DNA from: a virus
Reading direction: 5' to 3' (one strand)
Virus record (IMG/VR): IMGVR_UViG_3300048834_000523
Coordinates: 1 to 38,668 of that record
DNA length: 38,668 nt
Part shown: piece by piece, positions 1-38,668 of the stretch
Position numbering within the stretch: the stretch's first letter is position 1
Layout of the letters: each line of letters opens with the position of its first letter
Notes under the pieces: generated by a model
What the model was told of the DNA's origin: nothing
Databases searched by the model: none
The model's input: only the letters and a program-made list of their open reading frames with translations
Program-made: the position numbers and the translations under genes

Positions 1-127
1 TCGTTCCTTAGAAATACCCAGCCGCTCGCCAGCCTCACTGAGTTTCAGGCCCTCATAGAATCGCATGCGGATTACTTCGCGCTGACGCTCTGGCAGTTGC
101 TCAATTGCCTCACTCAGCAAGCCTGCC
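1..127. repeat. Terminal direct repeat marking circular closure
   Basis: Bases 1-127 are identical to bases 38542-38668. The sigma factor reading frame continues unbroken from base 1 to base 38541, so the two ends join and the true genome is about 38,541 bp and circular, or circularly permuted. An exact 127-base overlap is the size left by some k-mer assemblers, so it is probably an assembly overlap and not a physical terminal repeat. Confidence 0.95.
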
Positions 128-3110: not shown

Positions 3111-4049
3111 CTACTCGCACAAATCAAAATCTTCGAAATCATCGATCGTGGCTGCAGACTGGATCAACTCGTCAACGGCTGCCGGTGCTTTGGCTACGAT
3201 CGTGCCGATCACAGCCGCCTCACGTTGCTCGAACCACCAGGTAATCAGCATTAACATTGCCCGGATCCACGTCGGTGGTACCTTAGGAGCAGAATCCCAG
3301 CCGGCGTCGAACTCGATCGTGACTGCGTCGGGTGTCGACATGGTCGACGGCCACCGGGCCCAGCCCTTCAGGGCCAGCCGGCCACGGCCGAGCTCGTCGA
3401 TTCGCAGAACCAGGTCATCGGAATCGATCGTTTGTTCGGATCCATCTGGAGCCACATATCGCACTTCGGCGATCGATTGAGCCGGCCAGCGTGGCAGGTA
3501 GAGCCATCGTGCCTTGCGCGGGAATGCATCAAAGGTCATCGCCCAGCGCGTGGTCAGCAGACTAACATCCGTGTGCTCTTCAATGTACTCTCGGGCTTGC
3601 TGGATTAAGTCGACCAGCATTTCATCGTGCTCATCGCCATCGACTGAGCAATTCAACTGTGCCTGCCTGAGGCTCACAGCCTCCTCGGTAGCCGCTTCGA
3701 TCTTGCGGAGTGCGTATCGGTACCGATCGATGCCGGATCCGCCGATGGCTGATATGATCGCGCTGCCGGCAGCCGCACTAGTTTGACTCTTGGGATTGAA
3801 CTGCACGTCGACCGGTACGGCGTCGACGTGGCGAAACGAGTATGTTACGGCCGCGAAGTCCGTTTCTGCTCGCGTAGGAAAGTAAGACCAGGTCCCTGTT
3901 CCCTCGTTCTCGATCGACCCCAATCCCGGTGCTTTACCGCCACCATTGCCCAATACCCAGACGGTCACCGTGCCGCTGTCGACCGACAATCCCGTCGATC
4001 GATTGATTAAATTGGCGGTGACGACCTGGCCGTCTTTGTCTCGAATCAT
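3111..4049 (-). CDS. Head-tail connector (HK97 gp6-like) with N-terminal beta-rich extension
   Basis: The start ATG 4049 overlaps the upstream TGA (ATGA), giving 312 residues. The C-terminal part resembles HK97 gp6-type connectors: DLIQQAREYIEEHTDVSLL, then a TTRWAMTFDAFP segment, a WPAQSIAEVRYVAPDGSEQ segment and a final AMLMLITWWFEQREA helix. These proteins form the ring between portal and head closure. The first 100 residues (MIRDKDGQVVTANLINRSTG and following) are beta-rich and not part of a usual connector of 100-200 residues. They look like a small structural domain of the kind found in fibre or baseplate proteins. The upstream neighbour carries similar surface-type repeats, so a fusion seems plausible. 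Confidence 0.75.
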   Translation of the reverse strand: MIRDKDGQVVTANLINRSTGLSVDSGTVTVWVLGNGGGKAPGLGSIENEGTGTWSYFPTRAETDFAAVTYSFRHVDAVPVDVQFNPKSQTSAAAGSAIISAIGGSGIDRYRYALRKIEAATEEAVSLRQAQLNCSVDGDEHDEMLVDLIQQAREYIEEHTDVSLLTTRWAMTFDAFPRKARWLYLPRWPAQSIAEVRYVAPDGSEQTIDSDDLVLRIDELGRGRLALKGWARWPSTMSTPDAVTIEFDAGWDSAPKVPPTWIRAMLMLITWWFEQREAAVIGTIVAKAPAAVDELIQSAATIDDFEDFDLCE

Positions 4050-5108
4050 GACGCTACCCACACATTCGCCTGCGAGGCCCAAAACGGTTGAAAGTCACCC
4101 TCGGGAGGATTTGCGATCGCCAGCACGACAACGCCCTCCAGAATCGCCGTGATGCCCGCCTCGATCGGCGAGATAGCAGCGGCGATTGCCGAAACGCCCG
4201 CCAGTTCGATACTCACACCAGCCGCAATGGCGGACTCCGCCGAGCTGGATCCGGTAACGCCCTCCAGAATCGCCGTCACGATCCCTTCGACGCCTGCAGG
4301 CCCTTGCCCCTGTGCGGACACCGTCACACCGCTGAGCGTCGCTGTCACCCCCGCTTGGATCGGCGATACGGCGCTTGCGGTTGCATTTACTCCATCCAAC
4401 TGAACCGAAACCAGACCGTTGATCTCTGAGACGGCCGCTGCCGCCGCGGTTACTCCGTCGAGCGTGGTCGTCAAACTACCCGAAACGCCTCCATCCGCAC
4501 CGCCTGCAGCTGTGACGCTCACCCCTTCGAGTGTTGCGGTCACGCCGGCAGTGATCGGTGTCTGAGCGGAGCTCGTTGCCGTCACACCATCTAATGCAGC
4601 GGTGACACCAGCCGAAATTGGCAGTTGAGCTGTCGACGCGGCCGACACTCCGTCCAGCGTTGCAGTCACCGAACCATCGATCGGTGACTCTGCCGAGCTC
4701 GTAGCGGTGACACCCTCGAGAGTAGCAGTTACGGAGGCTTCGACTCCGCTCGAACTCCCCATTGCATAAATGTCCGCGATGTCGGTACCAGACCAGGCTG
4801 TACCGACCTCGACGATCGCATCGGCAATCTCACCATCGAAATAATTGCCTGCCGAAACCCCGCGCCCAATTGAAAAGCGACCAGCAGCGATTACCGCTCG
4901 CCGCTCCATAGGCGTAGGCGATTTCTTCCGCACCAGTGAAAATGAATGACTTACCCGATCCAAATGGGGGCGTGCCATAACCTGGCGTACCAGACCAAGT
5001 GCCGTTGCGACCATTGGCGGTATTGTCATTAGCGTCGCCGCTACCATTTTCGTCCGCATCGCCGTTCCAATGCAATTCGGCTGCGGCGATGATAGACGCG
5101 TAGCTCAC
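4046..5108 (-). pseudogene. Lectin (LamG)-like plus 22-residue repeat protein, interrupted by a frameshift
   Basis: Two frames cover this gene. The first starts at ATG 5108 (ATGA overlap with the preceding gene) with MSYASIIAAAELHWNGDADE, then a TANGRNGTWSGTPGYGTPP segment, and stops at 4830. The second, shifted +1, carries AAGRFSIGRGVSAGNYFDGE, then IADAIVEVGTAWSGTDIADI, and runs through ten repeats to 4046. The two halves are the beginning and end of a LamG/concanavalin-like domain, but its middle (about 70 residues) is missing. This points to an internal deletion that also shifted the frame near 4880-4910. The second frame has an ATG at 4909 without a good ribosome site. The intact form would be a virion surface or fibre protein. 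A sequencing error or +1 recoding is possible. Confidence 0.6.
4103..4738 (-). repeat. About ten degenerate 66-bp (22-residue) tandem repeats
   Basis: The encoded protein repeats a unit of about 22 residues of the form VTATLEGVTATSSAESPIxG. Examples are TATLDGVSAASTAQLPISAG, TAALDGVTATSSAQTPITAG and TAILEGVTGSSSAESAIAAG. One unit is Gly-rich and one carries a QGQGPAGVEG variant. Alternating hydrophobic residues suggest a beta-strand array, as in fibrous stalks. Confidence 0.85.
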
Positions 5109-6482: not shown

Positions 6483-7964
6483 TTAGTCTTGCTCCATGAC
6501 CTTGACGCTGCAGCGAGCGTCGGCCGTGGGCCTGAGCAGCTTACCGTCGACGCGGATGTATCCCAAGAAACCGATTTGCAGCTTCTCAATGAATCGCTCG
6601 TTGGCTCGCACGATTCGTACACCCTTCACGCGACGCAGCTTGTAATCGCGTAACCGGCCAAACGCCATCGTCTTCAGTCCGGTCGTGACCGCGCTGGCCA
6701 TCGCCTGGTTGTAGACATACGGACGATTGTGCAAGCGGTCAGGCGTACCGTCGCGCATGGAAACTTGCCATAGAGGCCGGCCTTCGAGATCCTTGAGCAA
6801 CCGCAGGTACTGCAGAATCGTATCGTGCAGCATGAACTGCGACTCGGACCTGTAGGACGGATCCACCGAGTGCTCGAGCTTAACCACATCGTCGTACGCG
6901 ATCGCCGTAGCGGAAGCGGTTGTGTGGCCCACGGGTGCATCGAGCATAATTCCGGAAGGCTTACCGGTAGCATCGCCGGTCGTAGCCGCGGTGTTGATGG
7001 TTCGGCCCAGTCGCTCGCCCAACATGCCTGCCAGAATAACTTCCAGGTCAAACATGCTATCTTCGTTCAAGGCAATCGGTACCTTGATCCACTTGCTGTG
7101 CAGCTCGTGGGCAACCCAGTTCTGCCTGCGGAACGCCGGGTTAGGCTCACCGATCGTCTGGGTATCTTCACCCTCGACCGCAACCCAGTGGCCGCTATTG
7201 GCTGTATCGTCCGCGATCGGCCAATGCATCTGCTCGCCCGATTCGGTCGTGATCGTGTCGACGTAGCTCAACATATCACCGTAGGCCAGCATGGCCATTT
7301 CGAGAATGTTGATAAAGGTCTGGGGTACCAACTCGGGACCGGCCGTGGCTGTGCCAAGAGAGAGCGCTCGAATTTCCCCAGATTCGAATGCCAGCTGGCG
7401 TTCGTCCGGAGTCATGCGAGCCATTTGCCGCTGCATGACTCGCAGCGAGCGGGTATCGTGCAAGCCAACCGTAATCTGACCTTGGTTCGGCGAGAACTTG
7501 CGTCGAGCACAAGCGTCACGCATTTCGTCTGTCAGGACGTTGGGATTCTCGGCAGCAGCGCCGGCGAGCATCCACGATCGAAATACCAATCGCTTGTCCT
7601 TCTGACGCTGGGCGTACTCTTGTGCCTCATCGCGGTCAAAGCCGGCATCGCCGTACGATCGATCCTCACCGGGGAGCCGATCATCCAAGCCAGGCTTGGG
7701 GCCGCTGCGTCGGGATTGCTCTTCATCCTTGCGGATCTGCTCGACGCGGGAGCGGATCTCGTCATCGTTTGTGGCACCGATGAGAGCTTGCTCGTTGGCG
7801 TCGTATTCTTTGTTGACACTGGCCCAGGCCTCGCGAGTCTCATCTGGCCAGGCTTCACCGCCCGCCTTGCGTCGCTCTTCGTAGGCACTGCTTTGCTTGC
7901 GGATCTCGGCTGCGAGCTCCTGTTTCTTGACGCGGAGCTCCTGCAGGGTGAGCGTTTTGCTCAT
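6483..7964 (-). CDS. Major capsid protein, HK97 fold, with N-terminal scaffold-like (delta) domain
   Basis: This 493-residue protein has an N-terminal coiled-coil region of about 100 residues (MSKTLTLQELRVKKQELAAE and following, charged helix to RKDEEQSRR). In HK97 this delta domain acts as the scaffold and is removed by the prohead protease encoded at 11138-11833. The mature shell part follows, with LVPQTFINILEMAMLAYGDM, a STYAGG-like surface loop, HSKWIKVPIALNEDS, a GTPDRLHNRPYVYNQAM segment and a C-terminal LQIGFLGYIRVDGKLL. It has its own 28-bp promoter element and a 200-base leader with hairpins, and is followed by a terminator, as expected for the most abundant virion protein. Confidence 0.95.
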   Translation of the reverse strand: MSKTLTLQELRVKKQELAAEIRKQSSAYEERRKAGGEAWPDETREAWASVNKEYDANEQALIGATNDDEIRSRVEQIRKDEEQSRRSGPKPGLDDRLPGEDRSYGDAGFDRDEAQEYAQRQKDKRLVFRSWMLAGAAAENPNVLTDEMRDACARRKFSPNQGQITVGLHDTRSLRVMQRQMARMTPDERQLAFESGEIRALSLGTATAGPELVPQTFINILEMAMLAYGDMLSYVDTITTESGEQMHWPIADDTANSGHWVAVEGEDTQTIGEPNPAFRRQNWVAHELHSKWIKVPIALNEDSMFDLEVILAGMLGERLGRTINTAATTGDATGKPSGIMLDAPVGHTTASATAIAYDDVVKLEHSVDPSYRSESQFMLHDTILQYLRLLKDLEGRPLWQVSMRDGTPDRLHNRPYVYNQAMASAVTTGLKTMAFGRLRDYKLRRVKGVRIVRANERFIEKLQIGFLGYIRVDGKLLRPTADARCSVKVMEQD

Positions 7965-11137: not shown

Positions 11138-11833
11138 CTAATTGACCTCGATCGACCTCATGCGAATACGCACGGCCTCATCGTCAGCGGACCTCAGACT
11201 ATCTTCGCGCTCACGCAATAGCTCGGCGAACTCTTGTGGATCGTGCCGATTGCTCTTGGCATCAGCTCCACGTCCGGCCGTGGTCGCTTCGTAAGCCGGC
11301 CAGGTCACGGGGCCAACGTCAAACAGATCGACGTCGTGAATGTTGCGCACATACAGCCAGCCATCATCTTGCTTGAGTTCCTCCCAGCTCACCTTGCGGG
11401 GGATGAACGCGAAGCTGGATCCGGTTACATCGCCCCGGTCGATCTTGGCTGCGACTCGTTGGTGATCAGGATCCTTGGGATCCTCGTCGATCTCGTAGGC
11501 CAGGCCTTCGCTGGTTACACTCAGCCGGCACGTTTTACTGGAGATCCGCCCGAGCAAAAGACTGGAATCGTGATTGAACAACGCTCGTGCGTCGTGAGAT
11601 TCTTTGATCGCTCGATCGAAGGCACCTGGCAGGATCCGCTCGACGGTGTCGGACCACAGCCAGTACTCGGTACCAGCGTCCCCTGCGCGATAGAACACGG
11701 CCGACAGACCGACGATCACACCCGCCGAGCCTTCCGCTCGCTGCTCTCGCCTGACTCCCGATAGATCCCGCCTCAGGTGACGTACCTCCGGTCCGCTGGT
11801 GGTTCGACGTCTGGTTCCGGCTCGTTGATTCAT
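11138..11833 (-). CDS. Prohead (HK97-type) serine protease
   Basis: This 231-residue protease removes the capsid delta domain during head maturation. After a basic N-terminus, the core shows VGLSAVFYRAGDAGTEYWLW, then ERILPGAFDRAIKESHDARA and LFNHDSSLLLGRISSKTCRL. The NH in LFNHD is the catalytic His. The DVTGSSFAFIPRK segment carries the catalytic Ser (GSSF), and a VGPVTWPAYEAT segment (family 'vspVtyPAY') ends the domain. It lies three positions from the portal gene, the usual HK97 order apart from the small genes between it and the capsid gene. Confidence 0.9.
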   Translation of the reverse strand: MNQRAGTRRRTTSGPEVRHLRRDLSGVRREQRAEGSAGVIVGLSAVFYRAGDAGTEYWLWSDTVERILPGAFDRAIKESHDARALFNHDSSLLLGRISSKTCRLSVTSEGLAYEIDEDPKDPDHQRVAAKIDRGDVTGSSFAFIPRKVSWEELKQDDGWLYVRNIHDVDLFDVGPVTWPAYEATTAGRGADAKSNRHDPQEFAELLREREDSLRSADDEAVRIRMRSIEVN

Positions 11834-11845
11834 TTCCTACTCCTG

Positions 11846-12058
11846 TTACTCTGGTCTTAGCGTCGCACTGTTGCGGCACTTGGCATTTCGGCAGACCCAA
11901 TCGGGAACGATTCGCTCGCCCTCGATTCGGAATTCGTCGCTGGGATCGCCATCCAGGATGAACAGGCGATCGCTCACTTGTTCCAGCTCGTGCACGAGGC
12001 CGCACTGCCGGCAGCGGATCCAAAATCCGGATCTCGTCTTTTCAAGCTTCACTGTCAT
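11846..12058 (-). CDS. Zinc-ribbon-like small protein
   Basis: The ATG at 12058 overlaps the portal stop (ATGA), giving 70 residues starting MTVKLEKTRSGFWIRCRQCG. Two CxxC-type pairs (CRQC near residue 16 and CRNAKC near 58) suggest a zinc ribbon. Between them lies a beta-like stretch ending IEGERIVPDW. It is too short for an enzyme; a nucleic-acid or protein contact role during head assembly is possible. Function unknown. Confidence 0.75.
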   Translation of the reverse strand: MTVKLEKTRSGFWIRCRQCGLVHELEQVSDRLFILDGDPSDEFRIEGERIVPDWVCRNAKCRNSATLRPE

Positions 12059-13575
12059 GATGGCTCCAATAACTCGCGTTCCATCCCGGCCAGCTCGACC
12101 TCCACATCTCGATCGAGTACTGTGCATGCATCGGTGATCATCTCACGCACTGCAGTCAGCTCGTCCAGATTGAACACGTTGCGGCGAGCCTCGGGAGACT
12201 TGGCCCGTTCCAGCTTGATCGCCAGTCGATTGCGGGCGCGGGCGAGTGTCGCTTGGGCAAGTGAATGGGACGCTGCTCGCTGCCGGTCGCTTCCCCGGTC
12301 GCCAGACTCGTCACCCTCTTCGTCATCATCGCTGGCATTGCTGCCAACCGGCTCTAGGTTCAGCGGCCGATAATAGGTCTCGCCACCCTCGTATGGATTG
12401 AGGTTTTCCCACTCCCGCGTTTCATTCGGAGACCAACGGCCGTTGGCAATACCGCTATTGGCGATCTCGCTGCGAGTCTTGGCGTCAGCCCACTGCAGCG
12501 CGTTAATCTTGTAGTCCAGGTAGACCAGGTCCTCTTCGATCTCCTCGTCAGTTCTAAGTTTGGCATTGGCTTCACACCTGCAGCCGATGAGCCAATGGCT
12601 GAGCGTACCGTCGTGGTAGTCGCGGATGGCCATCTCGTCGGCGTTGTAGCTAGTGGCTCCCTCGACGCTAAGCCGGCCAGCCTTCAGGTTAAAGATCCTG
12701 GCGATCTCTCGCGCGTCCTGTTCAACCGACTCGGTCAGCTGTGCCTTGGATGGATCCACCTGCGTGGAAAACCATTTGTAGCCATCGCGCAGCACGATCG
12801 TCTTGAACGCGTTGTCGGTGTTGCTGTACTTTTCCTTCAGGCCGGCTTGCACCTTCTGGACAGTTTCCCGTTTGGCACCTGGTGGAACCGCCAACACGCC
12901 GCCAGCCATCATGCCATTCTTGAAAAACTTGCTGGTAAACTTGCGCTTTGCCAGGCTCGCACCGAACAGATCCCGAAACAGCTTTACCAGGTTCTCACCG
13001 TGGAAACCGTCTAGGCTCAGGCCTTCGATATGGAATACCTCATCTGCCGGCAGGGCAGCCATCTGACCACCAACCTCAGTCAGGTACCATAGTTGACCTT
13101 TGATTCGCGCCGGGCAGGTACGATCCGGCAGCAGGTTGTACAGTCCCAGCACTTCGCCTCGGCCGTTCTTATCGATCCACGCGTATCCGTTGTTCCACAG
13201 CAACGCGGAAACCATCAGCCGGCGCCAGAACTTAAACGCGTTGACTTCCTTATTGGCCATGCCAACTAAGTTCACGTGACGAAACGCGTGGTGATCACGG
13301 AATAATTCCCGCCCGCCATCTTGTCGACGTCGCCAGACACCCATTGGCAACTTGGCCACGTCTCCGGAGATCATCGACACTGCTTGGTACAGCGCCGGAA
13401 TGGACAGGGCTTTGCGGGGAGAGACCACTTCGCCCGATGCCGATCCGGTTGTATCCATGTCGCGGAGCGCTTCGTCGATCGAGACGTCCGGATTCTCGAT
13501 CGACCGAGATTCCACGTCCGCCGACTGGCTGCCCCGGCCGATTAGTGCGTTTCCAAGATTTGACCAATAACCCAT
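12055..13575 (-). CDS. Portal protein (HK97 family)
   Basis: This 506-residue protein forms the dodecameric DNA channel at one vertex of the head. Characteristic stretches are SIPALYQAVSMISGDVAKLP (around 58-77), VSALLWNNGYAWIDKNGRGE, a FHIEGLSLDGFHGENLV segment and REIARIFNLKAGRLSVEGAT, followed by a long C-terminal charged region. The C-terminus after about 420 (SNASDDDEEGDESGDRG) is acidic and probably disordered, then helical. It lies between large terminase (16 bases away) and the zinc-ribbon gene (ATGA overlap). Confidence 0.93.
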   Translation of the reverse strand: MGYWSNLGNALIGRGSQSADVESRSIENPDVSIDEALRDMDTTGSASGEVVSPRKALSIPALYQAVSMISGDVAKLPMGVWRRRQDGGRELFRDHHAFRHVNLVGMANKEVNAFKFWRRLMVSALLWNNGYAWIDKNGRGEVLGLYNLLPDRTCPARIKGQLWYLTEVGGQMAALPADEVFHIEGLSLDGFHGENLVKLFRDLFGASLAKRKFTSKFFKNGMMAGGVLAVPPGAKRETVQKVQAGLKEKYSNTDNAFKTIVLRDGYKWFSTQVDPSKAQLTESVEQDAREIARIFNLKAGRLSVEGATSYNADEMAIRDYHDGTLSHWLIGCRCEANAKLRTDEEIEEDLVYLDYKINALQWADAKTRSEIANSGIANGRWSPNETREWENLNPYEGGETYYRPLNLEPVGSNASDDDEEGDESGDRGSDRQRAASHSLAQATLARARNRLAIKLERAKSPEARRNVFNLDELTAVREMITDACTVLDRDVEVELAGMERELLEPS

Positions 13576-13591: not shown

Positions 13592-15373
13592 CTAAATGAT
13601 TTCTACATCGTTGTCGTCGTAGAAACTTCCTTCGTCTTCCAGACCTGTCACAGCATCGCGTAGGCTCATGAGCATCGCCTGCGCTAAGTCCACCTTTCGG
13701 TAGTCGCCCTGTTTCTGTTTGACCAGACGTTTATCCTGGTTGGCGTTTGTCTTCGCCTGAGCGTTGCCGATCTGCCAGGTGAGCAGTGGATGCCCGTTGT
13801 GCCGGAGCTCGTGACCAATGATCAGTCTCTCGACCTCACGCACGATCGGGCCATACTCCATAATCGTCTGCGGAAACTCCCAACGCACCGCACCGGTCTC
13901 CGCCTCCAGCCGCTGCGTCAACCACTCGGCTTGAAACAGCGGATCGTAATAAAACTTGGTAACACCGAACCGATTGATGATCTCAACCAGATCGTCAAAG
14001 ATCATGTTGTAGTCAGCCACGTCACCGGGCGTCAGCTTGATGTGCCCACCCTCAGCCCACTGCTGATAAGGGACTCGTTTGTTCTGACGCTCTGCCTCGC
14101 GCTCTGGCAGCCAGCAGAACGGCACTACGGCTATCGTTCCGTCTGGACGTCGCACGCTGACCACAGCCGCGTTGGTATCGCGTACGGCAGCGAAGTCCAT
14201 GCCGAGCCAGGCAGGGCATTCCTCTTTGGCCAGCTCGGCGATTTGCTCCTCCGTGAATAGCTCGTAGCAATCGATTCGTCGCTTCTTGCCAGCCCGCTCG
14301 GTCGGTCCGCTGTCCCAATCGGCAATGCCACGCGGGCAGGCCTCATCCAGCCAGGCGTTCTCGGCCGTCAACCAGATGTTCAGCCGCAGCCGCAAAAACG
14401 CCGGCCATTGACTCGGCTCCGCTTTGGCCGCTTCGTAATCCTGCCGAAACGTACTGAGTTTTAGCGGTGCATCACGGTCAGTCCCCAAGCTGGGGTTGGC
14501 CTTGAACCAGGTGGCCTCCTCGTGTGGATCGTCGTCTTTATCCGCGGCGAAGATCTCACCGTAGAAAGCTTCGTCGATCTGCTTGCCCGCGTTGATCGCA
14601 TGGGTCTTATCGTGCAGGGTCCGGCAAACGCTTTGCATATCTGCGCCGGCCGTCGTGATCCCAACAAACAAGCCTTCAGGCTGGCTGGCCAGCATCCACT
14701 TGAGAGTATTGAAAAACTCAAAGCCTTTCCACCTGTGCAGCTCGTCCGCCAGGCAATGGCCGTTGACTCCGTCAGCACTCTCCGGATCCGCCGCTACGAC
14801 GTTCCACTCGTTGTCCCCGTACGCGATCGACCAGAACCCTTCGAACTTTCTCAGGGTCGCCACTGCCAGCAATTCGTCGCGGTTCCGAACCTGCCTCAGC
14901 GCGTGCAGCAGGCACCGCTCGGCTTGCTTGCGAGTGGTCGCGGCCAGGTACAGATTGATTTGTCGATCCCATGAGTCACCGAATAATAGGTAGTTGCCAA
15001 CCAGCGAGACGAACGGTGTCTTGCCGTTTTTCTTAGGAACCTCTTCGTACCAGAAGCGAAATCGTCTGACCGGGTATCCCCACTCCGGTGAGAACTTCAT
15101 CCAACCGAAAACCCTGCTTGAGCAGGTCGCTTGCCAGTCCAGCAGGCGGAACGGCTTACCTTTCCAGGGGCCTTCCGTCAGCGTGCCAAATTCTTCTGCG
15201 AACTGGAGCCAGTGTTCAGCTCGGTGCACATCGAAATAGCAGCCGCTGAGCAGTGCCCGTTCGTCGGCCTCTTCGCCAGGTCCCTGGCGTAGGTACTGGT
15301 ACCACCCTTCGCGCTTGGCCTTGCCGATCGCGTCGAGCAGCTTGGTCGTTTTTCGTCTGGGCGTCCGTGCCAC
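13592..15373 (-). CDS. terL: Terminase large subunit (ATPase-nuclease)
   Basis: This 593-residue motor cuts and pumps DNA into the prohead. The Walker A site is VPKKNGKT (about 112-119), after an RFRFWYEE strand. The Walker B site is near CLADELHRW, with an acidic DE pair. The C-terminal nuclease domain shows WLGMDFAAVRDTNAAVVSVR (first Asp) and a KFYYDPLFQAEWLTQRLE segment (second Asp). The type is HK97/phage terminase_1-like, which usually pairs with cos-type packaging and the HNH nuclease found upstream. A fibre gene and a small gene separate it from the small subunit, which is unusual. Confidence 0.95.
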   Translation of the reverse strand: MARTPRRKTTKLLDAIGKAKREGWYQYLRQGPGEEADERALLSGCYFDVHRAEHWLQFAEEFGTLTEGPWKGKPFRLLDWQATCSSRVFGWMKFSPEWGYPVRRFRFWYEEVPKKNGKTPFVSLVGNYLLFGDSWDRQINLYLAATTRKQAERCLLHALRQVRNRDELLAVATLRKFEGFWSIAYGDNEWNVVAADPESADGVNGHCLADELHRWKGFEFFNTLKWMLASQPEGLFVGITTAGADMQSVCRTLHDKTHAINAGKQIDEAFYGEIFAADKDDDPHEEATWFKANPSLGTDRDAPLKLSTFRQDYEAAKAEPSQWPAFLRLRLNIWLTAENAWLDEACPRGIADWDSGPTERAGKKRRIDCYELFTEEQIAELAKEECPAWLGMDFAAVRDTNAAVVSVRRPDGTIAVVPFCWLPEREAERQNKRVPYQQWAEGGHIKLTPGDVADYNMIFDDLVEIINRFGVTKFYYDPLFQAEWLTQRLEAETGAVRWEFPQTIMEYGPIVREVERLIIGHELRHNGHPLLTWQIGNAQAKTNANQDKRLVKQKQGDYRKVDLAQAMLMSLRDAVTGLEDEGSFYDDNDVEII

Positions 15374-18039: not shown

Positions 18040-18492
18040 TTATTCGTCGTACTTAGCCTTAGCGAACTGTGCAATCTTCGGCATCTGTTGCCGCCCAATT
18101 CCTCCGCGCTTATTCAGCTGCGCCAGCGAGTGAGGCGTTAATCCAAACTTCAACCACAACTTTTGCAACGCGGCCAATGCCTTGTCACGCTGCCGGACCT
18201 GTGGCGTCTCTTGCGAGTACCCTTTGTCTGTCGTGAACATCATGCGGGCTGGATCCTCGTCCAGCCACACTGTCAGCGATCGATACTGTTGCCACTGCTC
18301 GCATAGCACACGGAAGCTTTGCAAGTGTACTGGTGTTAGGATGTTCAGCTCGATCAACTGGGGCGCAAGCGATAGCCAATACTCCTTGCCATATTCCCCG
18401 AGATCATCCGGTGGTGATGGAGCTTCAATCAGTACCGGGCCTGCAGGTGGCGTGCTCTCTCCCGGCTTGCGTCCATTTCGCTTCTTTGCCAT
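18040..18492 (-). CDS. terS: Terminase small subunit (P27-type)
   Basis: This 150-residue protein starts MAKKRNGRKPGESTPPAGPV, with a basic tail. It continues with SPPDDLGEYGKEYWLSLAPQ, the P27 family entry motif ('L.......W.......L'). A FRVLCEQWQQYRSLTVWLDE helix follows, then DKALAALQKLWLKFGLTPHS, the closing family pattern. It selects phage DNA for packaging and hands it to the large subunit. It lies next to the HNH gene, five bases away. Confidence 0.85.
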   Translation of the reverse strand: MAKKRNGRKPGESTPPAGPVLIEAPSPPDDLGEYGKEYWLSLAPQLIELNILTPVHLQSFRVLCEQWQQYRSLTVWLDEDPARMMFTTDKGYSQETPQVRQRDKALAALQKLWLKFGLTPHSLAQLNKRGGIGRQQMPKIAQFAKAKYDE

Positions 18493-18497
18493 TGGGC

Positions 18498-18821
18498 CTA
18501 TGCTCCGCTAGCCGTCTTGCGATCGTGGCAGCGCTTGCAGAGCGGTTGCCAATTGCTGATTCGCCAGAACAGCTGCTCGTTGCCACGGTGGGGAATGACA
18601 TGGTCGACCACGGTGGCCGCAACAAAGCGACGTTCACGCTCGCATGCTCGGCAAAATGGATTGGCTGCCAAATAGCGTCGCCGGGCGGCTCGCCAACGCC
18701 TGTTATATCCACGTTGGTGTGCGTTGGGCCGCCCCGACGCTGGTTCCGTTGTACCCTTTGCCGGCGCCGGCCGGCTTGTTCGTATTCGCTTTGGACGTAG
18801 TCTGCGAGCGCTCTGTGCCAC
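18498..18821 (-). CDS. HNH endonuclease
   Basis: This 107-residue protein has a basic N-terminus (MAQSARRLRPKRIRTSRPAP) and an HNH core: PFCRACERERRFVAATVVDH, then VIPHRGNEQLFW, N in RISNWQPLC and CKRCHDRKTA. Two CxxC pairs coordinate a structural zinc and the DH motif is the catalytic His. The start is a GTG two codons after the upstream stop. HNH nucleases beside terminase genes in HK97-like phages are needed for cos cleavage and packaging. Confidence 0.9.
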   Translation of the reverse strand: MAQSARRLRPKRIRTSRPAPAKGTTEPASGRPNAHQRGYNRRWRAARRRYLAANPFCRACERERRFVAATVVDHVIPHRGNEQLFWRISNWQPLCKRCHDRKTASGA

Positions 18822-18824
18822 GAC

Positions 18825-19343
18825 TTAAACTGGCTTTGGCTTCAGGCCGGTGGTCTTCTCAACCAGCCATTCCATAGCACGCCAAACCTGGAAGTGATCC
18901 AAGATCGGATTGAGCCAATCGCTCATCACACAGTACTTGACCTCAAACGGGCTGCGGTGGTGATGACCATGGTGCAGGGGGGACTGCAGAAGGCCTGTTT
19001 CCTGAAGGACAGCGACCCACCATGAGACCTTGCCTTTGCTATGGGCCCAAGCGTGGATCTCGTTTGCCTGGCTGACAAATACAAATACCATGCAAATCGG
19101 ACTGGGTACCGTCAGACAGAATGCGATCGCAGCGGGCAAGATCGTTGTCCAGTTTCGCGACCAGTAGCTCTGGAAGAGGAACGCCGACGGCTGTTCGTGG
19201 TGCAGCTCGTTTGGCTTGGCAATGTACTTGCCAATCACCGGCCAGGTCACATCGAAATAGCGATCCTCCAGCCAATGCCAGAAACCGGCAATCAAGTCTG
19301 CAAGCAAATAGCAGGCGAGCAGATAACCAATTACCGACACCAT
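18825..19343 (-). CDS. CarF/TMEM189 (Kua)-like lipid desaturase, plasmanylethanolamine desaturase family
   Basis: ATG 19343 has AAGGA seven bases upstream and gives 172 residues; an ORF extension further up is not supported. The sequence matches the lipid desaturase domain of CarF/PEDS1: GFWHWLEDRYF (His23), NELHHEQP (His48, 49), NEIHAWAHS (His97, 101) and SPLHHGHHHRSP (124-129), with closing SDWLNPILDHFQVWRAMEWL. In that family these His residues bind the diiron centre that makes the vinyl ether bond of plasmalogens. Two or more membrane segments are visible (residues 3-20, 67-90). Family members are usually about 270 residues, so this is shortened at the N-terminus. It follows a holin-like gene and an exported protease. 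A role in membrane change during lysis or lipid supply is inference. Very unusual in a phage. Confidence 0.88.
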   Translation of the reverse strand: MVSVIGYLLACYLLADLIAGFWHWLEDRYFDVTWPVIGKYIAKPNELHHEQPSAFLFQSYWSRNWTTILPAAIAFCLTVPSPICMVFVFVSQANEIHAWAHSKGKVSWWVAVLQETGLLQSPLHHGHHHRSPFEVKYCVMSDWLNPILDHFQVWRAMEWLVEKTTGLKPKPV

Positions 19344-19359: not shown

Positions 19360-19554
19360 TCAGACCGTCTGCTTAGCCAACCACTTGCGACCCAAATTGA
19401 CCAGTACGCTGAACGCTGCGGAGAGCAGCATCGCATTGAAGTTGCCGGCCTCATCCAGCTGAGGGACCACTTGTGTGGACGTGTAGCTGAGAAGTGCCCC
19501 ACTGACTGCGATGCCAGCTCCCTTGCCGACTTTTAGCCAGTCCTCACGTTTCAC
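19360..19554 (-). CDS. Small two-helix membrane protein, holin-like
   Basis: The GTG start at 19554 overlaps the protease stop (GTGA), giving 64 residues: VKREDWLKVGKGAGIAVSGA and following. Two hydrophobic segments are visible, one around residues 11-30 (KGAGIAVSGALLSYTSTQVV) and one around 41-56 (FNAMLLSAAFSVLVNLG), with a basic end (GRKWLAKQ). The size, topology and position after a secreted lytic-type protein are typical of holins, which open the inner membrane at the end of infection. The pore function is inferred from position, not seen. Confidence 0.7.
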   Translation of the reverse strand: MKREDWLKVGKGAGIAVSGALLSYTSTQVVPQLDEAGNFNAMLLSAAFSVLVNLGRKWLAKQTV

Positions 19555-20822
19555 GAGCGTAGCCGCCCTAACAGATAGCCAGCGGCTCCAGCTCCAGCGG
19601 CTACCACAACCGTGATGATCACACGACGAAACCACTCGCCGAGCTTGGCGATCGGGCCTGCAGGCTGAGTCTTGTCCGGATCTCTGTCGCGGAATATTCC
19701 GGTACCCTCATCGGCGTCCGGCTTGTCTGGACCATCTTCGAGGATTGAGTCTATGACCGATCCATCGGTCGCGCCCTCAGTTTCGTCGGCGGACGTCAAG
19801 CTGGTAAACGCCAAGATTTGGCCGTCTAGGCCACACGGCATCTTCCGCACAGGGAGATTGGCCGTATTCGCCGACAACTCCTGAGCGTACACCGGCAGCG
19901 ATTCAAAAGATTTTGGCATCTGCCCACGCATTGCGTTAAGTAAAAACGGTGTCGATTGTCCGAGGCCTTCTCCACCACCGCCCCACGTCAACAGTCCGAC
20001 CACTCGGGGACCTGACTCGGTATAGTCAACTACGCTGGAGCCACTGCGCCCGCCGATCGCCTCTGGCAACCAGCGGAGTACTTGCCCCTCTGCACGAGTC
20101 AGCTTGAGTACTTGCATGGATGGCCATTCGCAGCGAGGGCAGCCGTAAGTTGACACGCCGGCCGCTACATCTGGATAGCGATCAGCCAGCGGAATCGGAA
20201 CAACGTCCTTGGCAAAGCCCGCGTTGCATTTGAGCAAGGCAAAGTCGATGCTCAGCCCACGGCCGTAGCCGGCAGCGATGATAGCACCATTGCCCTTTTC
20301 AGATTCACCGTTGGTATCCCAGCGCTGAACTTGCACCTGGCGTCCGCGTTGCGTTCCAGCTACGTGTGCGTTGGTCAATACGATCGCGTTACCGTCGCTG
20401 TCCCGGCCGACAACTGTCCCGGATCCGCAGACCCCAGACACCGTGATTCGGCAGGTCGCGCGGACTACTCGAGCAAACCGGTCGCCTACGTCTGCCAGCT
20501 CTGAGATCTCGACCGATGAGACATCGATCGACTTATCACCGCCTTGGAGCGGAGTCAAAAACAATTGCACAGTTTGGCAAGGTACGGCTACCCGATGTTC
20601 CACCGCAGAGTACGGAGCAATGTACCCGGGCTGACTGACGATCGGGGGAAACACCTGCACAGGGCATTGGCCACCGGGGCACTGCGAGGGCTGGCATTGA
20701 CCGCCTGGGCAGTTCTGCAGCATACGAGCGCGTAGGTCACAGTCTTGAGTAAAGGCAGGCACAGCCGCGCAAGAGTGCAGCAGCATGACTGCGATCGCAG
20801 CCATTTTGGGAAACGTGTTCAT
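19551..20822 (-). CDS. Exported trypsin-like serine protease with C-terminal membrane anchor
   Basis: This 423-residue protein begins with a signal peptide (MNTFPKMAAIAVMLLHSCAA). A Cys/Pro-rich stretch (QPSQCPGGQCP) follows. The chymotrypsin fold carries the triad His153 (TNAHV), Asp193 (SIDFALLK) and Ser260 in GRSGSS. A proline-rich acidic linker (about 350-395) leads to a terminal membrane helix (RVIITVVVAAGAGAAGYLLG) with a basic end. It would sit in the outer envelope space anchored to the inner membrane. It starts the cassette that continues with a holin-like protein and CarF-like protein. No peptidoglycan hydrolase is seen in the genome, so this protease may replace or assist the endolysin (inference). 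Cleavage of host envelope proteins is the other likely role. Confidence 0.85.
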   Translation of the reverse strand: MNTFPKMAAIAVMLLHSCAAVPAFTQDCDLRARMLQNCPGGQCQPSQCPGGQCPVQVFPPIVSQPGYIAPYSAVEHRVAVPCQTVQLFLTPLQGGDKSIDVSSVEISELADVGDRFARVVRATCRITVSGVCGSGTVVGRDSDGNAIVLTNAHVAGTQRGRQVQVQRWDTNGESEKGNGAIIAAGYGRGLSIDFALLKCNAGFAKDVVPIPLADRYPDVAAGVSTYGCPRCEWPSMQVLKLTRAEGQVLRWLPEAIGGRSGSSVVDYTESGPRVVGLLTWGGGGEGLGQSTPFLLNAMRGQMPKSFESLPVYAQELSANTANLPVRKMPCGLDGQILAFTSLTSADETEGATDGSVIDSILEDGPDKPDADEGTGIFRDRDPDKTQPAGPIAKLGEWFRRVIITVVVAAGAGAAGYLLGRLRS

Positions 20823-21307: not shown

Positions 21308-22360
21308 TTAACCCGTAAAAAGACGGAGCTGTGGCGATGACTCAAGTGGGGACTGGCGAGTCTGTTGCCGGCGCAGATCGATAGTTTCATTCGAATTGGC
21401 AAGCAATGATTCCAGCGGACTCTTTGCGGATGTAACGCCGTCTTTTTGCAGATGAATGTAACCCATAGTCGTACGCGGGTCACTGTGGCCCATAATCCGC
21501 TGGACCACATGAATCGGCACACCGCCCTCAAGCGAATGCGTGGCATATGAATGACGTAAGCAATGGGAAGTAATTCGTTTTGGGATTCCAGCCTGTTGGG
21601 CAGCTTGCTTGATTTGTCGGGCAATGTGTCCCATATCGCGATGGTGCCGATACAGTCTCCCCGAGTGCGGGCATTTGGAGTAGTGATCGGAGGCAAACAG
21701 ATACCACCACGCGAAGTCCAGCCTCGACGAGGGCGATTTCTCACCCCAGCGATTGGGCAGCGAGACACCGTTGAGGCCTTCGCGCCGGTCGCTTTGCCAA
21801 AGTACCTGCATCGACTCCATTTGGACCCGCACCGGCTCGTGCAGCAGCTCCGGGAACGGAACCAACCGATCTTTATTTCCCTTGCCAGCGCGCACGACGA
21901 TTTGCCGCCGTTCGAAGCTGATGTCCTTCATACGAATGTTGCCAACTTCGCCGATTCGAAAGCTGGCCGCGTACATCATCGACGCGGCTAGTAGTGCCAC
22001 GCCGTGCAGCCGATCGAAAAGGGCAATCAGCTCCGACTGGTCTACCACATCACGGATCCTTTGGGGAGCCTTGGCTCTGAGTGCCGAGACGTCGACGAGC
22101 GGCCTGCCATATACGTTGGCGTATACGTAGCAGACGGCTGAGAACGCCTGATTCTGCGTACCTGCGGAGACGTTCCTTTGGTTGGCCATCTCAGATAGAA
22201 ACAACTCGACAGCTTGCTCGGCTTTGGTTTCACGCCCTAAACGGCGAGCCTTGAAGAAAGCCTCGTAGCGCTGCCACCAGTACCAGTAGACATCGGCCGT
22301 CGAATCTTCTTTGTTCTGGGCCCGCAGCTTTTCTCGTATCCGCTTTTCCATTTCTCTCAT
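21308..22360 (-). CDS. Tyrosine recombinase, integron-integrase-like (IntI type)
   Basis: This 350-residue recombinase carries all key residues: Arg135 (ASFRIGEVGN), Lys160/163 (GKGNKDR), His266 and Arg269 (SHCLRHSYATH), His292 (MGHSDPRTTM) and Tyr301 (MGYIHLQ). The segment FAWWYLFASDHYSKCPHSGR followed by LYRHHRD is the hallmark insertion of integron integrases, with the RHH motif. The N-terminal SAM-like domain (ADVYWYWWQRYEAFFKARRL) is present. Phage relatives of IntI exist, but no attC-type array is seen here. Its partner site could lie in the 700-base gap upstream. It is one of three tyrosine recombinases in the genome. Confidence 0.88.
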   Translation of the reverse strand: MREMEKRIREKLRAQNKEDSTADVYWYWWQRYEAFFKARRLGRETKAEQAVELFLSEMANQRNVSAGTQNQAFSAVCYVYANVYGRPLVDVSALRAKAPQRIRDVVDQSELIALFDRLHGVALLAASMMYAASFRIGEVGNIRMKDISFERRQIVVRAGKGNKDRLVPFPELLHEPVRVQMESMQVLWQSDRREGLNGVSLPNRWGEKSPSSRLDFAWWYLFASDHYSKCPHSGRLYRHHRDMGHIARQIKQAAQQAGIPKRITSHCLRHSYATHSLEGGVPIHVVQRIMGHSDPRTTMGYIHLQKDGVTSAKSPLESLLANSNETIDLRRQQTRQSPLESSPQLRLFTG

Positions 22361-26954: not shown

Positions 26955-27674
26955 TCAGCCGTGTGACTTGCCGCTGAACAGCGACAAGCAAAGCTGTTCG
27001 CTCTGCTGCTTGCGAAGATAGATCTCGGTGGTTCGGATCGATCGATGTCCCATGAGTGCTTGTACGGCGCGAACATCGAGGTTGGCGTCGCCTTTGACCA
27101 GCTGCATGGCTTCCTGGCACGCGGTGTCCCGAAAGGAATGTGACGATAGCTTGCAGCCAAACAATCGCCCCAGAGGCCCTGCCACATCGCGATTGAACAC
27201 ATTGACGTTCAGCCGGCTCCCTGTGATGCTCGGCAGCAGATAGGGACTGTTGGCCATCGCTTCGAAGCTCGCACGCCCATCGGTCATAAGCCTGGTGTGC
27301 CGGCACATCAGCCTGGCGTGCCATGCCTTCGTCGCCTCCAGCAGCTCCGGATCGATCCGTATGACGTGCACCGCCCCGCGTTTGGAACGTCGCAGCTCCA
27401 CTGTATCGCCGCTCACGTCGTGCACCAAGAGACTGGCGAGTTCGTTGAAGCGGCCGGCCAATGCCGTCAGCCACAGAATCGTCAGCCCGTGGCGTCGAGC
27501 AATCAGAGATCCGGAACCGAACCGCTGCAGAAATTGATTGGCTCCATCGGGCACGTGCCGATAGAAATGACCGCTCCATGCGAGGTCCCAAACTGACAGG
27601 TAAAACGTCTCGCGCAGCGCTGCCGGTATCGGCCTGGTGGCCGACCTGGTTGGTTTCGATTTGTCGGTCTGCAC
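26955..27674 (-). CDS. Short tyrosine recombinase (mostly catalytic domain)
   Basis: This 239-residue recombinase has Arg75 (LAGRFNELASL), Lys98 (RRSKRG), His179 and Arg182 (SSHSFRDTACQE), His210 (ALMGHRSIRTT) and Tyr219 (TEIYLRK). The N-terminal DNA-binding part is only about 50 residues, shorter than the usual 80-100, so it may bind core sites with limited specificity. A candidate target is the 32-bp palindrome at 26776-26807. Its place between ASCH and exonuclease genes suggests replication-linked recombination such as monomer resolution, not prophage integration (inference). Confidence 0.8.
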   Translation of the reverse strand: MQTDKSKPTRSATRPIPAALRETFYLSVWDLAWSGHFYRHVPDGANQFLQRFGSGSLIARRHGLTILWLTALAGRFNELASLLVHDVSGDTVELRRSKRGAVHVIRIDPELLEATKAWHARLMCRHTRLMTDGRASFEAMANSPYLLPSITGSRLNVNVFNRDVAGPLGRLFGCKLSSHSFRDTACQEAMQLVKGDANLDVRAVQALMGHRSIRTTEIYLRKQQSEQLCLSLFSGKSHG

Positions 27675-29964: not shown

Positions 29965-30825
29965 CTAAACCGCAACTTCGGCCGGCAATTTGGGGTGATG
30001 CCGATAGCCTTCCAATGAAATGTGTTCCCACCTAAAGTTCAGCAGTTGCTCCAATGCACCTTTGCCGGGTGGCAAACCCACTGCTACCCAGGGCAGCAAG
30101 TGGGGCTCGCGAGTCAACTGCAACCTCGCCTGCTCAAGATGGTTGTTGTAAAGATGCAGATCGCCGAAGCTGATGAAAAGCTTTCTTGGGACCTTATCAG
30201 TCACACGGGCCAGCATCTTCAACAACAATGCGTAGCTCGCGATATTGAATGGCAATCCCAAGAAAACATCGATCGAGCGTGCGTACAAATGGAGACTCAG
30301 CTCGTTATTGGGATGGCATTTAACCTGCCAAAGCGTGTGGCACGGAGGGAGAGCAACGCGGTCCTGGTAATGAGGATGCCAGCCTGTGCAAATGATCCGA
30401 CGGCTGTTTGGCCTGTGGAGGATGTCGAGAATCACTGAGCAGATCTGGTCCGCAGATCCGTTGCCAGCTTCGTGTTCATCGAATGGACCAATAGGGAAGC
30501 GACGCCAGAGTGCACCGTACACTGGGCCAAGATCCCCCGCCTCGCGACCGAATCGGCCGCATTGCTCTGCAGTCGCCCATTCCTTCCAGATGTCCACGCC
30601 ACGTTGCCGCAGATCGCCTTCGTTGGTGGATCCACTGAGGAACCAGAACAATTCCTCGGCGACCCACCGTAAAGGAACAGCCTTGGTTGTGATTAGCGGG
30701 AAACCCGATTTCATATCATGAGTCCACTGGAGGCCGAAGGTACTAAGAGTTCCCACTCCAGTACGGTCCTCATGTGGCTCACCTTCATCGATCACGTAAC
30801 GCAGCAAGTCCAAATACGATTGCAT
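29965..30825 (-). CDS. thyA: Thymidylate synthase
   Basis: This 286-residue enzyme makes dTMP from dUMP with methylene-tetrahydrofolate. The catalytic Cys is in VALPPCHTLWQ. The dUMP-binding Arg pair is in RPNSRRIICTGWHP, and the folate region is in RSIDVFLGLPFNIASYALLL, with FGDLHLYNNHLEQ near the end. The length is normal (E. coli ThyA is 264). It begins the early nucleotide/replication group. It lies 32 bases after the gene at 30858. Phage thyA supplies extra thymidylate for replication. Confidence 0.96.
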   Translation of the reverse strand: MQSYLDLLRYVIDEGEPHEDRTGVGTLSTFGLQWTHDMKSGFPLITTKAVPLRWVAEELFWFLSGSTNEGDLRQRGVDIWKEWATAEQCGRFGREAGDLGPVYGALWRRFPIGPFDEHEAGNGSADQICSVILDILHRPNSRRIICTGWHPHYQDRVALPPCHTLWQVKCHPNNELSLHLYARSIDVFLGLPFNIASYALLLKMLARVTDKVPRKLFISFGDLHLYNNHLEQARLQLTREPHLLPWVAVGLPPGKGALEQLLNFRWEHISLEGYRHHPKLPAEVAV

Positions 30826-36364: not shown

Positions 36365-38470
36365 TTAGACGCCAGACGCGCCCTGTAGATTGGCTATCCT
36401 TGCGTTCATTCGCTCAAGGTGAGTATTGACGTTGCGCAAGAGGCCGTTGCTCTCTTTCTGCAAAGACTCGGCCGAGCCCGCACGTTCATTCTTGAGTGCG
36501 GCCGAGAAGGCTTCGACGCTGCCTTTTTGCAGTGCTCCAAACGACGGAGTCTCCGGCCGCTTGTCTTTGGTCGCATCTTTGCCAAGCCTTGTTGCCGCTT
36601 CGCGAGCAGCTCGGGCATACGTACCAAAGTCGATCGCTCCTACGTTCAGCAGTCGACTCAGGTCGGCCATCTCTGCCCGCAGCTGCTGTTGCGGCGATCG
36701 GAATTGCTCCTGAAGCTGTTTGCCGCGTTCCATGGCTTGATGGAGCTCCTCCATCCTCTGTTTCTCTTGCTGCATGGCGGCGAAGCCTCTCAACTGCTGG
36801 GCTGTAGCTCCTTGGCGAGCAAGCTTCATGCGTTCGACTGCATCCGCCCCCATACGCAGCGTCGCGATCTCATCACGCAGCCCGCCGATTCGCTCTGCAA
36901 CTGCGTCACGATTCTGCTGAGCAGCTCGTGCACGTTCCTCGGCCGCTTGCTTCGCAGATTCGGCCGCAGCTTTAGCGGCCTCTTCGCGTGCTTGAATCGC
37001 TCCCATGTCGACAGAGCCTTGTCCACCTGATTCAGCAGCTGCCTTTGCCTCAGCTCTCGCTTGTTGCGTTTTAGCCAACAGATCCATTCCCGTCCCAAAG
37101 TCGAGGCCTCTACCGGCAGCCTCGACGGCGCCAGCCAGGTCAAGACGGCTCGCTCGCTCCATCGTCGTAAAGATCGATTCCAGAAGTTCCAACCAGTCGT
37201 AGAGGTATCCGGTACCATAGGCCAAGCCATCGACAATCGTTGGGAGAACTGTCTGCCAACCGCCGAACGACTCTGCAACGTCCGTTACCGAAGTTGCGAT
37301 CGCATCTATCAGCGGAGCTACCTCAGCGGCGATCTGTCGGAATGCCCCAGTTGCAATCAACTCCACGCGTCCCCAGGCATCATTGGCGGCTTCGACTTGC
37401 TTGGCTTGAGCCTGGCTGAGTGTCAGTCCTAGCCTGTCAGCGACGGCCACCGTTGCATTAATTGCATCCGGCCCACCCCTGAGCGTGTTAACCAAGGCAG
37501 ATCCCTCCTCCTCGAACAGGCGGAATGCCAATACTAATTGATCGGCCGGACTCTTCATTTGCTGTGTCGCGGAGGCCAGTTGCTTCATCGCCTGCAGGGG
37601 ACCTGCCTCCAAGAGCTGACCCGAGTCCAGGCCCAAGGACTTCAGTTGGTCATCCAGGGCACCGCCATTGCGTTTGGCCTCAGCCAATCGAATCTGCAGC
37701 TTCGTAAGTGCCTTGTCCGCTGCCTCCGGGCCCAGGCCGGTCGACTCTCCGACAGCCAGACGAAATCCAGCTAGCTCACGGAACGTCACATTGGCTTTAG
37801 AAGCGCTTTTTGCGATCTCGTCAATCTCGCCCAGTTGCTGACGGACGCCACGTATTGTGACGATGGCTGCTGCAGCGGCCGAGGCGGTTGCAACGAAACC
37901 AGCAGCGACGGCTGCGCCGGCCGCAATTCCTACCGGACCCAACCGGGTGAGCGCGGATCCTACGCCGGCAATCTGCGGAGTCGTTTTGCCTAGCACCTTG
38001 AACTCAGCGTCAATGACGTCGTTATCGTTCCTTTTCGGGAGAGCGATGGACCTGGTTCCGATCCTTAACTGTGGGACTATGTTCGCTGCAGAAGTTGCGT
38101 TCCTACGTATCAGCCCGGTCGCAGCAGCGGCCACTGTTGCAGCGGTCGCGAATTGTGCCATTTCCTGAGCTGCAGCCTTTGAGGAAACAGCCGTGTCCTT
38201 GGTGCTCTTGGCTACCCGGACTACAACACCGCCGGCGAAGGCTGCAGCAATGGCAGAGAAAGCAGCTGCAGCTGCCGACGCTCCGGGGATAGCTGCAAGG
38301 ATGTTCGTTCCGAGCTGACGCAATGGTGCTAGGGTCGCTTCGGCCGCTTTGCCCATGCGATTGATGTCAGACTCGAATTTCTTTACCTTACCCGTCGATC
38401 GATCGAAGCCTTTGTCCAGCTTTTCGGTCCGAGCTCCGAGTACGATATCTAGATTTTCGATAACTGCCAT
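36365..38470 (-). CDS. Tail tape measure protein
   Basis: This 701-residue protein starts MAVIENLDIVLGARTEKLDK. The N-terminal half is long helix (STGKVKKFESDINRMGKAAE), with alanine-rich hydrophobic segments (AAAAFSAIAAAFAGGVVVRV, GIAAGAAVAAGFVATASAAA) that probably cross the membrane or pack in the tube. The second half is coiled-coil (AKAAAESAKQAAEERARAAQ, RMEELHQAMERGKQLQEQFR). Its length sets the tail length; about 700 residues predicts roughly 100 nm (inference). The gene starts two bases after the sigma stop. Confidence 0.92.
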   Translation of the reverse strand: MAVIENLDIVLGARTEKLDKGFDRSTGKVKKFESDINRMGKAAEATLAPLRQLGTNILAAIPGASAAAAAFSAIAAAFAGGVVVRVAKSTKDTAVSSKAAAQEMAQFATAATVAAAATGLIRRNATSAANIVPQLRIGTRSIALPKRNDNDVIDAEFKVLGKTTPQIAGVGSALTRLGPVGIAAGAAVAAGFVATASAAAAAIVTIRGVRQQLGEIDEIAKSASKANVTFRELAGFRLAVGESTGLGPEAADKALTKLQIRLAEAKRNGGALDDQLKSLGLDSGQLLEAGPLQAMKQLASATQQMKSPADQLVLAFRLFEEEGSALVNTLRGGPDAINATVAVADRLGLTLSQAQAKQVEAANDAWGRVELIATGAFRQIAAEVAPLIDAIATSVTDVAESFGGWQTVLPTIVDGLAYGTGYLYDWLELLESIFTTMERASRLDLAGAVEAAGRGLDFGTGMDLLAKTQQARAEAKAAAESGGQGSVDMGAIQAREEAAKAAAESAKQAAEERARAAQQNRDAVAERIGGLRDEIATLRMGADAVERMKLARQGATAQQLRGFAAMQQEKQRMEELHQAMERGKQLQEQFRSPQQQLRAEMADLSRLLNVGAIDFGTYARAAREAATRLGKDATKDKRPETPSFGALQKGSVEAFSAALKNERAGSAESLQKESNGLLRNVNTHLERMNARIANLQGASGV

Positions 38471-38472
38471 CG

Positions 38473-38668
38473 CTATTCAACTCCCGCTGCGTGCAACTGA
38501 TTGCGAAGTGAGACGATAGCTGCAGATTGGATCTGCCTGGCTCGTTCCTTAGAAATACCCAGCCGCTCGCCAGCCTCACTGAGTTTCAGGCCCTCATAGA
38601 ATCGCATGCGGATTACTTCGCGCTGACGCTCTGGCAGTTGCTCAATTGCCTCACTCAGCAAGCCTGCC
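38473..38668 (-). CDS. Phage sigma factor (C-terminal part, partly duplicated by the terminal repeat)
   Basis: This is the end of the gene that begins at 564. Only 38473-38541 are new sequence; 38542-38668 repeats 1-127. The segment reads LPERQREVIRMRFYEGLKLS, then EAGERLGISKERARQIQSAA, the region 4.2 helix-turn-helix that binds the -35 region in sigma-70 factors. It ends LRNQLHAAGVE. Together with the N-terminal part the protein has 210 residues. Confidence 0.9.
   Translation of the reverse strand, partial: AGLLSEAIEQLPERQREVIRMRFYEGLKLSEAGERLGISKERARQIQSAAIVSLRNQLHAAGVE

Follow-up and report, generated by a model that had tools for sequence, protein, structure and literature searches.

A PN-type lipid desaturase of the PF10520 family encoded beside the packaging genes of phages

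The window, that is, the whole stretch of 38,668 bases analysed here, stems from a genuine tailed phage and encodes a protein of the PF10520 family, to which CarF, PEDS1 and FAD4 belong, with the full histidine set of that family, as had been claimed in a preliminary description. The narrower assignment to the CarF/TMEM189 type did not hold, and judged by its residues the protein should be called a PN-type PF10520 lipid desaturase of phages rather than CarF/PEDS1. On the basis of sequence comparison and a structure model, we consider it fairly probable that this protein belongs to a virus-borne subfamily of di-iron lipid desaturases of the membrane, whose members act on host lipid chains close to the head group. 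The desaturase is found in 81 distinct viral contigs (window included) and forms a mostly viral clade with an invariant residue of its own.

The phage genome and the desaturase gene

The first and last 127 bases of the record are identical, a direct terminal repeat which indicates that the genome is complete and circular, with a length of about 38,541 bp. The order of the modules fits a circle, the tape measure gene standing near the right end of the record and the head-tail connector gene near the left. The desaturase gene and the main phage genes are located as follows:

1..127, no strand: direct terminal repeat, left copy (sequence identity of ends)
3111..4082, minus strand: head-tail connector
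6483..7964, minus strand: major head protein
11138..11833, minus strand: head maturation protease
12055..13575, minus strand: portal protein
13592..15373, minus strand: terminase large subunit TerL, phrog_9 (family match)
18040..18492, minus strand: terminase small subunit TerS, phrog_83 (family match)
18498..18821, minus strand: HNH endonuclease (family match)
18825..19343, minus strand: PN-type lipid desaturase (PF10520), 172 aa (Pfam match and residue alignment)
36365..38470, minus strand: tape measure protein, with the gene order continuing across the record ends
38542..38668, no strand: direct terminal repeat, right copy (sequence identity of ends)

The desaturase is an intact open reading frame of 172 aa on the minus strand, a strand that the preliminary description had left unnamed; translation of the plus strand of 18825-19343 yields no such protein. 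It matches Pfam PF10520 (Lipid_desat) over profile positions 1-173 of 175 with an E-value of 8.7e-42 and 143.5 bits, above the gathering cut-off of 26.4 bits, and contains the motifs FWHWLED, NELHHEQP, NEIHAWAHS and LHHGHHH. Together with the conserved relatives described below, this confirms both the gene and the full set of histidine motifs (FWHW, NELHHEQP, NEIHAWAHS, LHHGHHH) that had been proposed for it. The reading frame continues without a stop as far upstream as 19502, but relatives share the same start methionine, so that the protein is probably 172 aa long. Downstream follow the HNH endonuclease, TerS and TerL, the packaging genes that had been reported beside the desaturase, and then portal, head maturation protease and major head protein.

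PF04116 (FA_hydroxylase) also matches the protein, below its own cut-off (E 8.7e-5), and in this case the sequence on its own does not distinguish a desaturase from a hydroxylase. No match was obtained in PADLOC or in a sequence search of solved structures, and PHROGs has no family for the phage desaturase. An AlphaFold2 model built on an alignment of 38 rows is helical and confident (pLDDT 91.5, pTM 0.85). Among viral proteins, its closest fold match is one from a giant virus annotated with a 'lipid desaturase domain' (E 2.4e-6, TM 0.70), and its best match in the PDB, a weak one, is the membrane di-iron hydroxylase Scs7p (TMq 0.49, E 3.5).

Elsewhere in the window, a thymidylate synthase gene was detected at 29965-30825 on the minus strand (PF00303, E 2.4e-86). 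A tyrosine recombinase at 21308-22360 (minus strand) matches the NCBIfam 'integron integrase' model TIGR02249 with 279.9 bits against a cut-off of 265; it had no match in the related loci L002, L003 and L023, and similar integrases with 30-38% identity occur in a few other phage records. Two more genes of the phage-integrase family, at 26955-27674 (minus strand) and 33640-34566 (plus strand), bring the tyrosine recombinases of this one phage to three.

Catalytic and diagnostic residues

The catalytic set of the window desaturase consists of His 23, 48, 49, 97, 101, 125, 128 and 129 and Asp 27. In an aligned set of 86 viral rows from 81 distinct contigs (window included), H95, D99, H120, H121, H186, H190, H214, H217 and H218 (human numbering) are conserved in 86/86, and the eight histidines plus Asp100 by which PF10520 is tested are present in the window protein and in every one of these rows.

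The residues that mark PEDS1 are replaced. At the position of Phe118, which is conserved across PEDS1 and FAD4 and whose exchange in F118A leaves 6% activity (PMC8960569), all 86 viral rows have Asn (Asn45 in the window protein). The position of His131 (mouse H131, CarF H113), the ninth histidine that marks functional PEDS1 (PMC9131029; PMC8960569), is Gln58 in the window protein and Gly in 57, Gln in 23, Lys in four, Asn in one and Leu in one of the viral rows, and never His. Homologues from plants and Alphaproteobacteria without the ninth histidine failed to replace CarF (PMC9131029). The NCBIfam equivalog model for CarF, NF045946, matches the window desaturase with 72.2 bits over profile positions 58-235 of 269, against a cut-off of 500 bits; the N-terminal 57 positions, which hold the first membrane helix, are missing. 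L056, a planctomycete gene with the PEDS1 signature, reaches 235 bits and is likewise below this cut-off. In BLAST, the window desaturase scored 95 bits with human PEDS1 and 90 bits with Arabidopsis FAD4; the former sequence agreed at all eleven published residue positions, and the latter, the one FAD4 sequence used, was checked by its Arg at 131 alone. A CarF/TMEM189 identity is not supported, given the exchanges of Phe118 to Asn and His131 to Gln, the low NF045946 score and the lacking first helix, and the protein does not group with PEDS1 in the tree.

Distribution and phylogeny

The search of viral genomes with PF10520, which had been recommended as a check, was carried out and was productive. 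A first scan of IMG/VR gave 28 viral loci with 46-72% identity to the window desaturase, and a scan with an alignment as query gave 110 encoding stretches. Between close relatives dN/dS was 0.07-0.21, indicating purifying selection on the desaturase of these relatives; the values rest on close pairs, the synonymous sites of the window gene itself being saturated. No homologue was found on plasmids, and two strict patterns retrieved no PEDS1-type gene from IMG/VR. Our literature search found no paper reporting PF10520 in phages. A PN-type PF10520 protein annotated as hypothetical (UIS25202.1) is nevertheless encoded by Erythrobacter phage vB_EliS-L02, an isolated lytic phage whose paper names no desaturase.

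In the first tree, the PN-type proteins formed one clade of 38 rows with a support of 100/99. Nearly all viral copies fell into one clade that is related to cellular PN-type genes of planctomycetes and lies apart from the planctomycete genes bearing the PEDS1 signature. A second tree recovered, within the PN clade, a group of 26 viral rows together with two copies from genomes, of which one is a verified prophage (SH-aLRT 95); the Erythrobacter-phage copy lies outside of this group. Human PEDS1 grouped with a cellular F-type gene of planctomycetes (99/87). When FAD4 served as outgroup, the PN clade was placed on the PEDS1 side (88/91, not starred), and it does not join FAD4, in a tree in which the human sequence stood for the PEDS1/CarF enzymes of known activity and a single sequence for FAD4. 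An assignment to FAD4 is likewise unsupported, as the PN clade is not its sister and has not kept Phe118, again by comparison with one FAD4 sequence. The simplest reading of the trees is that a planctomycete gene was captured and then evolved for a long time within phages. In the cellular loci L083 and L086, the PN-type gene adjoins a gene resembling CTP synthase (identified by eye), a neighbour that marks it as chromosomal there.

Two groups of PF10520 genes were noticed beside the phage family. Planctomycete chromosomes carry PF10520 genes (L051, L054-L057, L059-L068), most of them with Phe118 and His131, L058 being excepted. By their residues, those with the PEDS1 signature are possibly new bacterial CarF-like enzymes; true CarF has been reported only from myxobacteria and Leptospira (PMC9131029). 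A 595-kb huge phage (LR756511.1; L081, 2986-3444) encodes a PF10520 protein with both Phe118 and His131 that lies near FAD4 in the tree and for which no relatives were found.

Hosts and prophages

Relatives of the window desaturase are present in Pirellula MAGs, and the host of the window phage is, by its relatives, inferred to be a freshwater planctomycete. The 241 genomes searched all belong to a single planctomycete family. Two of them, each assembled as one contig, carry two phage-type copies apiece: G312 (8.4 Mb, 71% identity) and G385 (6.5 Mb, 70% identity). According to BLASTN, the IMG/VR contigs of L002, L003 and L023 correspond to the G312 and G385 copies at 100% identity. The L003 prophage starts about 150 bp after a tRNA-Leu gene, and a tRNA-Glu gene is located about 200 bp past the point where the L002 match ends. 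In G385 and G003, the chromosome additionally carries a PF10520 gene of its own, which has Phe at 118.

Neighbours of the desaturase

Two genes lie directly upstream of the desaturase, and membrane-anchored CxxC proteins adjoin it in other phages:

19551..20822, minus strand: exported trypsin-like serine protease, motifs TNAHV/DFAL/GRSGS intact, C-terminal membrane anchor
19360..19635, minus strand: small hydrophobic ORF between protease and desaturase, likely 64 aa from an internal GTG
L110 5494-5979, L114 3109-3615, L029 8918-9847: membrane-anchored, thioredoxin-like CxxC proteins beside phage desaturases

The exported protease described upstream of the desaturase is indeed there and is conserved in that position in the window's clade, with a signal peptide and a C-terminal anchor. 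A pattern search recovered all three of its catalytic motifs in 9/10 sequences, and the alignment shows a strongly conserved core in 10/10. Of the 33 loci of the first round, 24 have the protease next to the desaturase, and most loci of the same clade without it are truncated on the upstream side. The pair is common to two phage architectures, one with terminase phrog_9 (window) and one with phrog_38 (L005), and the desaturase-linked proteases are all on one side of a 100* branch, so that protease and desaturase are inherited together. An obligate pair is ruled out by the 64 of 75 further protease loci in which no desaturase was visible and a connector-like gene directly follows, a few of these loci ending just downstream of the protease. 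A strong C-terminal anchor is also not a hallmark of the desaturase-linked proteases, other proteases likewise having a membrane helix and then a tail. Loci L168-L239 represent a phage family that is widespread in freshwater and encodes an exported trypsin-like protease, anchored in the membrane, beside a connector-like gene.

The small ORF at 19360-19635 had been called holin-like, which is unsupported; it matches no family, and the relatives contain no homologue of it. For the suggested role in lysis we found no support beyond gene position.

In the sister lineage of L110, L114 and L025, the neighbour of the desaturase is a membrane-anchored CxxC thioredoxin-like protein. Its model has a pLDDT of mostly 74-88 in the C-terminal part and only 64 as a whole, and in a fold search the C-terminal part was closest to thioredoxins (probability ~0.99, E ~0.01). 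In L029, an exported, anchored CxxC protein is encoded just upstream of the desaturase. As the activity of FAD4 is enhanced by the peroxiredoxin PRXQ (PMC12456178), this neighbour recalls the FAD4-PRXQ partnership, an analogy that is only a lead. The window desaturase has no thioredoxin-like gene at its side, and no electron donor was identified in the window.

Proposed function and alternative explanations

Both characterised members of the family act near the glycerol end of the lipid, at C1'-C2' in PEDS1 and at C3-C4 in FAD4. We posit that the phage desaturase is made together with the late and structural genes and inserts into the host membrane, where it would use O2 and host-supplied electrons to remove two hydrogens from a membrane-lipid chain close to the glycerol (head-group) end. 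During infection or lysogeny, this may alter the packing of the membrane or its stability to oxidation, possibly in cooperation with the anchored protease or, in the sister lineage, the anchored thioredoxin-like protein. Because two residues tied to PEDS1 activity are replaced, a plasmanyl lipid handled in the manner of PEDS1 is an improbable substrate.

A true plasmalogen (vinyl ether) desaturase, converting alkyl-ether phospholipids of the host to plasmalogens, would be consistent with the shared family, with BLAST scores to PEDS1 similar to those to FAD4, with the placement of the PN clade on the PEDS1 side, and with PEDS1-signature genes on some planctomycete chromosomes, which suggest that the lipid may exist in the phylum. 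The invariant Asn at Phe118, the absence of His at 131, the NF045946 score, the missing helix and the failed replacement of CarF by homologues lacking the ninth histidine argue against such an enzyme, and we regard it as very doubtful. An acyl desaturase like FAD4, which would introduce a double bond at an unusual place, close to the carboxyl end of an acyl chain, with the assistance of a redox partner, also does without the ninth histidine, and the effect of PRXQ and the CxxC neighbours in L110/L114/L025 and L029 speak in its favour. We nevertheless judge it rather unlikely, as FAD4 keeps Phe118, the PN clade is not joined to it, and the window desaturase lacks a thioredoxin-like neighbour. 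More speculative, and in our estimate improbable, is a virus-specific lineage that makes a membrane lipid absent from its planctomycete host (with a vinyl ether or a near-carboxyl double bond) with the help of a phage-encoded anchored partner; if true, phages would have evolved a lipid chemistry of their own and not an unchanged borrowed host enzyme.

A further explanation concerns benefit, not chemistry, and is compatible with the others: the desaturase may be a passenger gene (moron) that serves the lysogen and not lytic infection, for example by helping the cell to withstand cold or photo-oxidative stress. Prophages near tRNA genes, two per genome, and the many protease loci without a visible desaturase, which mark the latter as accessory, are in line with this. 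The location inside the late structural region beside packaging genes and the PN-type copy in a lytic Erythrobacter phage are not, and we hold it only as a tentative possibility. A host gene caught in the assembly, conceivable in that planctomycetes have cellular PN-type genes, has a negligible probability given the terminal repeat, the phage module order with phage genes on both sides, the exported protease upstream, the separate clade of the phage copies and the prophage copies of relatives.

The favoured viral subfamily of head-group-end desaturases makes it possible to test directly whether planctomycete membranes are remodelled by phages, and its small proteins lend themselves to asking what separates PEDS1, FAD4 and the PN type.

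Comparison with known systems

The membrane lipid desaturases of cyanophages are classical acyl-lipid desaturases and are not known to belong to PF10520. They provide a precedent for phages altering the unsaturation of host lipids (Roitman et al., 2018, as cited in PMC8776855). With CarF/TMEM189 (PEDS1), the plasmanylethanolamine desaturase, the phage protein shares the PF10520 domain, the eight histidines with Asp100 and the membrane location, but it has Asn/Gln at 118/131, is about 100 residues shorter and has no first membrane helix. FAD4, the palmitate delta-3 trans desaturase of plants, is likewise a PF10520 protein without the ninth histidine, and the phage protein resembles it in the motifs around the third and fourth histidine groups (HAWAH, HHR.P); FAD4 differs in having Phe118 and Arg131, with about 34% identity, and is not its sister in the tree. 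UIS25202.1 of vB_EliS-L02 is of the same PN type (38% identity) and adjoins portal and head genes, although its host belongs to another phylum. The cellular PN-type genes of planctomycetes (L071, L074; L254-L259) are chromosomal, unlike the phage gene, but have the same Asn, no ninth histidine, 35-38% identity and a place in a related clade.
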